A stretch of 64,000 nt of DNA. Origin: Oscillospiraceae bacterium (GTDB taxonomy: Bacteria > Bacillota > Clostridia > Oscillospirales > Oscillospiraceae). The notes below the pieces were generated by a model, which was not told the DNA's origin, did not search any database, and saw only the letters and a program-made list of their open reading frames with translations. Below, one piece after another: positions 2,452 through 5,525 of this stretch. The stretch is from positions 1-64,000 of the forward strand of contig JAETSB010000004.1 of the NCBI GenBank assembly GCA_021769865.1. Direction: 5' to 3'. The first letter of the stretch is position 1, and every line of letters begins with the position of its first letter. Both the position numbers and the translations under genes were made by a program.

Positions 2452-3102
2452 TTATGTTTCGGTGGGATCGGCCTCCGTGGGGCTGGGGACGGGGTGCTCC
2501 TTGTGCTCCACCATGGCCCGGATGAGCTCCACGGTGCCGCCGAGCCCCAGGAAGCTGCTGTTGATGCAGAAGTCATAGCTGTCCACGGCGCCCCAGCGCT
2601 GGGAGGAATAATACTCGTAGTAGGAGGCCCGGCGCTTGTCGGTTTTGCTGATGAGGGCCTTGGCCTTCTCGGGGGTCAAATTCTGCCGCTTGGCCACCCG
2701 GCGGACCCGGTCCTCCAGAGGGGCGTGGATAAAGATGCTCAGGTGGTCGGGGTTTTCCGACAGGGCATAGTCCGCGCAGCGGCCGATGATGACGCAGGGG
2801 CCCTGCTCCGCGATCTGGCGGATGGTGTTGAAGGTGGCAAGATAGACCTGCTGCTCCAGGGACTCTCCCGCGCCGGTGCCGGGGAGGGCGAACATGTAAG
2901 AATCCATGGCGATGGAGTAGAGCAGGCTCTTGGGCCGCTCGTCGAAGTTCTCCAGGATCTTCTCGCACAGTCCGCTCTTCTTGGCGGCCTCCTGGAGGAT
3001 CTCCTTATCGTAAAAGGGAATGCCCAGCTCCTTGGCCACGCGGATGCCGACTTCCTTGCCGCCGCTGCCGAACTGTCTTCCAATGGTGATGATGGTCTTC
3101 AT
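2452..3102 (-). CDS. Cytidylate kinase-like family protein
   Basis: MKTIITIGRQFGSGGKEVGIRVAKELGIPFYDKEIL P-loop typical of the family; RBS aggaggt upstream; the longer ORF extension is not needed. Confidence 0.85.
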   Translation of the reverse strand: MKTIITIGRQFGSGGKEVGIRVAKELGIPFYDKEILQEAAKKSGLCEKILENFDERPKSLLYSIAMDSYMFALPGTGAGESLEQQVYLATFNTIRQIAEQGPCVIIGRCADYALSENPDHLSIFIHAPLEDRVRRVAKRQNLTPEKAKALISKTDKRRASYYEYYSSQRWGAVDSYDFCINSSFLGLGGTVELIRAMVEHKEHPVPSPTEADPTET

Positions 3103-3129
3103 AGCGGGACCTCCTTTCCGGTCCTCTTC

Positions 3130-3158
3130 ATTATACTCCGGTTTTGGGGAATCGTCAA
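3130..3158 (-). promoter_or_regulatory. Sigma-70-type promoter for the cytidylate kinase-like gene
   Basis: minus strand TTGACG-N17-TATAAT. Confidence 0.65.
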
Positions 3159-3169
3159 ATAAAAAACAA

Positions 3170-3198
3170 TTGACTTTCTCCATCTCCCAGGGTACAAT
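3170..3198 (+). promoter_or_regulatory. Sigma-70-type promoter for a short plus-strand RNA (candidate antitoxin RNA)
   Basis: TTGACT-N17-TACAAT, no ORF downstream on this strand. Confidence 0.65.
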
Positions 3199-3204
3199 AG
3201 GAGT

Positions 3205-3280
3205 GACCAAAAAGTGAGAGTAGATCCCGATGTACACCAAAGCGGAGCGCCCGGAAGCTGCAACTTCCGGGCGCTCCATT
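3205..3280 (+). ncRNA. Candidate antitoxin small RNA (RNA II-like), about 75 nt
   Basis: Starts just after the 3170-3198 promoter, ends at hairpin 3244-3277; contains AAAGTGAGAGTAGATCCC and TACACC that also occur at 3362-3392 as antisense to the small peptide's start region. Confidence 0.6.
3244..3277. terminator. Bidirectional hairpin shared by convergent toxin mRNA and small RNA
   Basis: GGAGCGCCCGGAAG-ctgcaa-CTTCCGGGCGCTCC, 14-bp perfect stem; U-tracts are weak on both strands. Confidence 0.6.
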
Positions 3281-3294
3281 TCAGGCTGCCGCTG

Positions 3295-3381
3295 TCATTT
3301 CTTCCCATCCAGCCATTTGCAAACGAGATGACCAATCACGTTCGCCGTGAGGGAAGCAAATAAAGTGAGAATAAATCCCAT
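3295..3381 (-). CDS. 28-aa small hydrophobic peptide, Fst/Ldr-like type I toxin candidate
   Basis: MGFILTLFASLTANVIGHLVCKWLDGKK*; RBS GGGAGGAGGTG just upstream; single TM helix followed by KWLDGKK charged tail; below the 60-aa cut-off of the ORF track. Confidence 0.7.
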   Translation of the reverse strand: MGFILTLFASLTANVIGHLVCKWLDGKK

Positions 3382-3424
3382 GGATATACACCTCCTCCCA
3401 CTGTGGAGGACCGACAGCAGTTCG

Positions 3425-3433
3425 ATTATAGCA
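3425..3433 (-). promoter_or_regulatory. Extended -10 promoter for the small peptide mRNA
   Basis: minus strand TGCTATAAT. Confidence 0.55.
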
Positions 3434-3464
3434 TATCATTTGACAAAAATCGACCGCCTGAGCG

Positions 3465-3500
3465 AAAAATCCCCGGAGTGTAAATACTCCGGGGATTTTT
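3465..3500. terminator. Bidirectional intrinsic terminator after the GGGtGRT gene
   Basis: AAAAATCCCCGGAGT-gtaaat-ACTCCGGGGATTTTT. Confidence 0.85.
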
Positions 3501-3522
3501 CCAGTCCGATATTGCGATTTGT

Positions 3523-4521
3523 TTACTTTTTGCTCTCAGACACGGCAACCGCCACGGCGACCGTCGCGCCCACCATGGGGTTGTTGCCCATCCCTAAGAA
3601 GCCCATCATCTCCACGTGGGCGGGGACGGAGCTGGAGCCGGCGAACTGGGCGTCGGAGTGCATCCGGCCCATGGTGTCGGTCATGCCGTAGGAGGCCGGG
3701 CCGGCGGCCATGTTGTCCGGGTGCAGGGTCCGGCCCGTGCCGCCGCCGGAGGCCACGGAGAAGTACTTCTTCCCCTGCTCGTAGCACTCCTTCTTATAGG
3801 TGCCCGCCACGGGGTGCTGGAATCGGGTGGGGTTGGTGGAGTTGCCGGTGATGGAGACGTCCACGCCCTCCAGGTGCATGATGGCCACGCCCTCCCGGAC
3901 GTCGTCCGCGCCGTAGCAGCGGACATTGGCCCGCTCGCCCTCGGAGTAGCGGGTCTCCTTGACCATCTTCACCTCGCCGGTGCCGTAGTCAAACTGGGTC
4001 TGGACATAGGTGAAGCCGTTGATGCGGCTGATGATCTGGGCGGCGTCCTTGCCCAGGCCGTTCAGGATGACCCGCAGGGGCTCCTTGCGGGCCTTGTTGG
4101 CGTTGCGGACGATGCCGATGGCGCCCTCGGCGGCGGCGAAGGACTCGTGGCCCGCCAGGAAGGCGAAGCACTTGGTCTCGTCCCGGAGGAGCATGGCGCC
4201 CAGGTTCCCGTGGCCCAGGCCCACCTTGCGGTCGTCGGCCACGGACCCGGGGATGCAGAAGGCCTGGAGGCCCTCGCCGATGGCCTCCGCAGCCTCGGCG
4301 GCGGTGGCCACGTTCTTCTTCAGCGCGATGGCCGCGCCCACGCAGTAGGCCCAGCAGGCGTTCTCAAAGCAGATGGGCTGGATGCCCTTGACGATCTCAT
4401 AGGGGTCGAAGCCGGCGGCCTGGCAGATCTCCCGGCACTCCTCCACAGACTTGATTCCGTACTGAGACAGGACGGAATTGATCTTGTCGATTCTTCTCTC
4501 GTAGCTTTCAAACAGAGCCAT
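3523..4521 (-). CDS. GGGtGRT protein
   Basis: Signature SGGGTGRTLHPDNMAAGPASYGMTDTMGRMHSDAQFAGSSSVPAHVEMMGFLGMGNNPMVGATVAVAVAV. Confidence 0.85.
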   Translation of the reverse strand: MALFESYERRIDKINSVLSQYGIKSVEECREICQAAGFDPYEIVKGIQPICFENACWAYCVGAAIALKKNVATAAEAAEAIGEGLQAFCIPGSVADDRKVGLGHGNLGAMLLRDETKCFAFLAGHESFAAAEGAIGIVRNANKARKEPLRVILNGLGKDAAQIISRINGFTYVQTQFDYGTGEVKMVKETRYSEGERANVRCYGADDVREGVAIMHLEGVDVSITGNSTNPTRFQHPVAGTYKKECYEQGKKYFSVASGGGTGRTLHPDNMAAGPASYGMTDTMGRMHSDAQFAGSSSVPAHVEMMGFLGMGNNPMVGATVAVAVAVSESKK

Positions 4522-5448: not shown

Positions 5449-5525
5449 GGACGATTAGCTCAGCTGGCTAGAGCACCTGCTTGACGTGCAGGGGGTCACA
5501 GGTTCGAGTCCTGTATCGTCCACCA
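5449..5525 (+). tRNA. tRNA-Val (anticodon GAC), CCA encoded
   Basis: GGACGAT acceptor pairs with ATCGTCC; CCTGC-TTGACGT-GCAGG anticodon arm; GGTTCGAGTCC T arm; ends ACCA. Confidence 0.9.

Follow-up and report, generated by a model that had tools for sequence, protein, structure and literature searches.

Among described type I toxin-antitoxin systems, the closest to the locus studied here are par-pAD1 of Enterococcus (toxin Fst, RNA I and RNA II) and its homologues in pneumococci. F66, a 239-nt RNA detected by Northern blot, whose mutant is attenuated in nasopharyngeal colonisation (PMC3395615), is the same RNA as srn502 and Spd_sr109 (PMC12323649). spd_sr109 is in turn described as the toxin mRNA in one of two tandem Fst-like systems homologous to par, with both RNAs detected in Northern blots (PMC9812572; annotation PMC6212727). 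An earlier in silico search, as cited in a review (PMC6563280), found Fst-like sequences in only C. bolteae and C. asparagiforme among Clostridia.

Parts and predicted pairing of the window locus

The locus lies in a 64-kb stretch of a gut Oscillospiraceae genome (the window), as a module of about 240 bp sitting between two minus-strand genes, one cytidylate-kinase-like (2452-3102) and one of the GGGtGRT type (3523-4521). Its minus strand carries a predicted-toxin ORF (3295-3381) for a hydrophobic peptide of 28 amino acids, MGFILTLFASLTANVIGHLVCKWLDGKK, ending in CKWLDGKK. Upstream are a Shine-Dalgarno region, GGGAGGAGGTG (3389-3399), contained in a leader of 37 nt, and a toxin promoter with an extended -10 element, TGCTATAAT (3425-3433, first base 3433). 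The predicted toxin mRNA, RNA I, would start near 3418 and measure about 175-185 nt (3234-3418). On the plus strand, the sequence TTGACT-N17-TACAAT (3170-3198) provides a convergent promoter for a predicted antisense antitoxin, RNA II, of about 75-83 nt (3205-3283, start near 3205). Downstream of this promoter one reads GACCAAAAAGTGAGAGTAGATCCCGATGTACACC and then a G+C-rich hairpin (3244-3277), a putative bidirectional terminator common to the 3′ ends of both RNAs. The runs of T beside the hairpin are short, and a terminator scan was passed on the minus strand only. The ORF, the ribosome binding site (RBS), the extended -10, the plus-strand promoter and the hairpin had been described in an earlier note on this DNA, and all of them were recovered base for base at the positions given there.

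A perfect inverted repeat of 16 bp, flanked by A/T, occupies 3464-3501 in the interval that separates the GGGtGRT gene from the toxin promoter, and is probably the terminator of the GGGtGRT gene. An Rfam search of the window returned a tRNA (5449-5522) as the sole gathering-level match and none at the module.

RNA II contains two repeats of sequences found on the antisense strand of the toxin start. The longer, of 18 nt, pairs a DRb-like copy (3211-3228) with a copy opposite the toxin start (3362-3379, both on the plus strand). This pair is unique in the 64 kb at up to 3 mismatches (expected number, 0.05), none of 100 shuffled windows contained two matches to it, and no other direct repeat was found in 3100-3520. 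The second is a DRa-like copy, GATGTACACC (3229-3238, plus strand), which corresponds to GATATACACC (3383-3392, plus strand) opposite the RBS-proximal leader and has as its pairing partner GGUGUAUAUC, beside the RBS. The earlier note had recognised the 18-nt pair and had made the second repeat too short; it extends over 10 bp, with one further G-U. The note's reading of the two differences within the 18-nt block, namely that both keep RNA pairing as G-U wobbles, proved correct.

The predicted duplex between RNA II and RNA I comprises 10 bp beside the toxin RBS, a 3-nt bulge at the start codon and 18 bp (including 2 G-U) running from the last base of AUG to codon 7, the first AUG bases being bulged. 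Its energy is about -49 kcal/mol. In the predicted fold of RNA I by itself, the 5′ end forms a helix with the stop region and a stem-loop hides most of the Shine-Dalgarno sequence, with pairing probabilities at the RBS mostly 0.75-1.0.

Repeats and toxin starts across the family

Homologues were collected by peptide match alone, leaving RNA features unused, and yielded 154 non-redundant loci. In each of them, the locus's own toxin start (-25 to +40) was sought again downstream of the stop codon, and almost every locus proved to have such a second copy. Cognate repeats scored a median of 31, against a median of 14 and a 99th percentile of 23 for non-cognate combinations, and the own toxin ranked first for the downstream repeat in 126 of the 154 loci. 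Coverage by the repeat is maximal from -10 to +22 relative to the start codon. Following the peptide into relatives while checking the repeats was a check proposed with the original description; its outcome is that the repeats co-vary with the toxin starts. A chance origin of the repeat was rejected on these cognate matches together with the repeat statistics in the 64 kb.

The differences between the two copies are strongly skewed: 198 keep a G-U pair versus 48 that give A-C clashes (p = 8e-23) and, counted by locus in the same test, 88 versus 9. Non-cognate control pairs of similar score gave 317 wobble-compatible versus 227 incompatible differences, so that base composition accounts for only part of the bias. 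The pattern of substitutions indicates that selection acts on RNA pairing rather than on DNA identity. When RNA duplex energies were used instead, the own partner came first in 55% of cases, a less clean separation of cognate from non-cognate pairs than sequence matching gave, because G+C content dominates the energies.

The remaining anatomy is conserved as well. A TTG at -23 and the element TGnTATAAT are common to toxin-side and antisense-side promoters (138 and 114 loci, respectively), and the antisense -10 is perfect in 65% of the family versus 10% in shuffles. Half of the loci have a toxin leader of 39-43 nt. Beyond the stop codon, 146 of 154 loci have a hairpin whose stem is 7 bp or longer, and toxin RNAs pair through their 5′ end with their own stop region better than with those of other loci (z = 18 versus permutations). 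The YUNR U-turn motif, with which pairing begins in par-pAD1, is absent from the window terminator loop (UUGCAG) and present in 18% of the family hairpin loops; by inspection, it is not universal among Fst control loci either. Eight annotated or near-annotated Fst plasmid loci, put through the same analysis, have the same arrangement, with repeat scores of 31-42 in all except L200. In this annotated locus, which adjoins an ISL3 transposase, the repeat score is 18 and the antisense repeat region looks disrupted.

Peptide, distribution and copies

Over 17 codons anchored on W-L-D, the family pN/pS is about 0.25, a value that indicates protein-level purifying selection on the ORF and by which a non-coding decoy ORF was rejected. 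The peptides have a short transmembrane (TM) helix, a W that is invariant in the alignment (A2) and a charged tail, DGKK in the window and varied in relatives. The TM motif P/D/S/T-xxx-G is found in the majority, not all, of Fst toxins (PMC7472228); 51 of 140 family peptides have it, and in the window peptide the corresponding residues are S-xxx-N.

The window peptide matches neither of the Fst models, NCBIfam NF033608 and Pfam PF13955. The best family member reaches E values of 2.9e-5 and 0.0015 in the two models, and the NF033608 matches displayed with bit scores lie at 12-16 bits versus a cut-off of 26. Comparison of the family profile with the Fst profile by hhalign gave 94%, and controls with shuffled TM columns still reached 93%, so that the similarity rests mostly on the W-L-D tail. 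Among solved structures, LdrD matches the family profile best (E 0.33), in a stretch covering the W-L tail. The CKWLD motif was also looked for in the literature, where nothing pertinent turned up. Judged by its sequence, the toxin is thus not a typical Fst, having no P-xxx-G and falling below the Fst models. The peptides can be grouped as a divergent subfamily with the pattern SxxA[G/S/N]…CKWLD, which scores under the cut-offs of the Fst models and is common among Clostridia. Given a par-like anatomy, Fst models that are not reached and a similarity confined mostly to the tail, we limit the claim to this: the locus probably works like par, and its peptide probably belongs to a divergent branch of the Fst/Ldr superfamily.

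Peptide homologues occur in 7 of 60 relatives. An alignment-profile search found homologues in 28 of 394 genomes of the order, and they occur in 15 of 399 genomes of the phylum. GTDB species genomes hold at least 541 confirmed matches. (The profile search of genome contigs used A3, a tighter sub-alignment of A2.) A matching ORF is present in 225 plasmid records (L029, L032 and L033 included), 178 of them from Enterococcus and 112 of the total conjugative; none of the 30 plasmid matches listed is annotated at the ORF. One S. suis plasmid has the matching ORF near a tet(O/W/32/O) gene. IMG/VR contains 45 viral contigs with a homologue. The 8.5-kb Inoviridae record bajarodino virus 15 carries an unannotated full module with its own matching repeat (L034, 1501-1575). 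By these matches the subfamily is large, mostly unannotated and widely distributed among gut Firmicutes as well as plasmids and phages.

Around the GGGtGRT gene of relatives gene order is not kept, and the module and the kinase-like gene are absent beside it in all of them. The window module itself is 79% identical over 240 bp to a locus in another genome of the genus (L003) that has different neighbours. A module kept between genomes while its flanks differ behaves as a unit.

The genome of the window locus harbors three copies of the module, and family genomes contain up to nine. In five genomes with 3-6 copies, each of the 21 antisense regions finds its best match in its own toxin. Copies may also stand in tandem arrays of two to four modules, spaced by about 350-400 bp in L236 (1500-2700), L234 (1154-1900) and L009, and by 430-620 in L230. 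Each antisense region in these arrays best fits its own toxin start, with the exception of the edge copy of L230, for which the start region is incomplete.

Interpretation and comparison with known systems

The window locus is, with high probability, a type I toxin-antitoxin module of the par/Fst kind. The anatomy of the locus, the conservation of that anatomy, the selection on RNA pairing and the constraint on the peptide were all computed here. On this reading, the minus strand would give rise to an mRNA of about 180 nt encoding a membrane peptide of 28 aa with a single helix, whose predicted effect is to damage or perturb the membrane of its own cell, and the convergent plus-strand promoter to an RNA of about 80 nt. 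Both RNAs would finish at one hairpin, where they are mutually complementary, and the small RNA would bear two short repeats as complements of the RBS-proximal leader and of the initial codons. Once paired at the hairpin and through both repeats, it would cover the RBS and start region and block translation; the 5′ fold of the mRNA would mask the RBS and protect the mRNA end. Analogy with par-pAD1 and the pneumococcal relatives suggests that the locus is transcribed, that translation is blocked, that the peptide is toxic and that the module may have a stabilising or stress-related role. The par-like module put forward in the earlier note is upheld by repeats, G-U bias, promoters, peptide constraint, folds and Fst controls. 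Two points need correcting: the toxin is not a typical Fst, and the family has known members, the pneumococcal homologues taken up below.

Antisense control could be genuine and the peptide not a toxin: a small membrane regulator or accessory protein might have its translation tuned by the antisense RNA. Toxicity of family members is a prediction, there is no agreement on what Fst-like systems do in chromosomes (PMC7472228), and in the pneumococcal relatives toxin mRNA exceeds antitoxin with no evident harm (PMC9812572). We nevertheless regard this alternative as unlikely, as the size of the peptide, its TM helix, W and charged tail, the occurrence on many plasmids and phages, the multi-copy orthogonal pairs and the par anatomy are what one would expect of toxin modules. 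The notion that the repeats and the small ORF are chance intergenic features draws on the ease with which short ORFs and promoter-like hexamers arise by chance. It fails on an 18-nt repeat not expected by chance, and on a module that hundreds of genomes keep, with co-varying repeats and constrained codons; its probability is negligible, and cognate repeat ranking, G-U bias and pN/pS refute it.

A third view would place the module in the C. difficile type I group (CD0956.2/RCd10-like, NF047374) instead of the par group. Both comprise short TM peptides with a convergent antisense RNA in Clostridia (PMC6563280), and 10 of 29 members match NF047374 weakly (up to 20 bits, E 0.0003-0.08). These scores, and the 13.4 bits of the window peptide, lie far under the 60-bit cut-off, and phage phiC2 (L036) offers a useful negative control: its ORF passes that cut-off, yet its toxin start is not repeated (score 15, ranking 68 of 154) and it has no W-L-D tail, unlike the CKWLD and Fst loci, which have both features. 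Membership in the C. difficile group therefore seems highly improbable.

Returning to the par-type reading, we tentatively propose that gut Clostridia harbor a hyper-abundant, unannotated par-type branch, in multiple and tandem copies, in which each antisense code has changed to fit its own toxin alone. Such insulated RNA pairs would form a natural set that is still evolving, and might persist because selection disfavours cross-protection, whether among copies or against plasmids and phages that bring in the module. The hundreds of natural antisense pairs are material for studying how RNA specificity changes without loss of toxin control, and the family offers a means to ask what chromosomal par systems do.

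Compared with known systems, the family shares with Ldr/rdl of Enterobacteria the superfamily signature and the W-L tail; Ldr differs in its regulation, which is hok/sok-like (PMC7472228) and does not work through shared-terminator repeats. The C. difficile systems (CD0956.2-RCd10 and relatives) are alike in the clostridial traits cited above but have longer peptides with a lysine-rich tail and a different profile, and the 5′ part of the phiC2 antisense RNA has no repeat copy. Likeness to par-pAD1 extends to the convergent promoters, the common hairpin, two direct repeats at the toxin start and the position of W-L-D, with S or T replacing the P of Fst at identical spacing to L-D; the RNA I 5′ stem-loop over the RBS and the 5′ helix (PMC7472228) are here predicted. 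The family toxin differs in having no P-xxx-G, a conserved CKWLD and scores below the Fst HMM cut-offs, while in the window the YUNR loop is missing and the ORF starts with AUG.

The pneumococcal srf-27/spd_sr109 and srf-28/spd_sr111 resemble the family in their convergent RNAs and in a tandem layout like that of several family loci (PMC9812572); comparison of their proteins with the window family rests on the RNA model RF02442 (SpF66_sRNA). RNA I of family members aligns to the whole length of this model, with scores of up to 127.5 bits. The cut-off of the model (42 bits) is reached on the toxin strand by eight loci (L024, L025, L028, L029, L030, L032, L033 and L035), all of them Lactobacillales members; the window locus and most clostridial members fall below it, Waltera L031 scoring 38.6 bits and Blautia L148 32 bits. 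From these matches, the RF02442 "sRNA" appears to be a toxin mRNA, which would explain the entry. Nor is the family wholly new in principle, given that the pneumococcal par homologues fall within its Lactobacillales branch. Taken with the Rfam matches and the earlier search, as far as the review relates it, this means that the kind of system was already known and that its extent in Clostridia appears to be new. What the present analysis adds to the known par systems is the scale (at least 541 matches in GTDB), as many as nine copies in one genome, tandem arrays in which each antisense RNA matches its own toxin alone, and evidence of selection on pairing.
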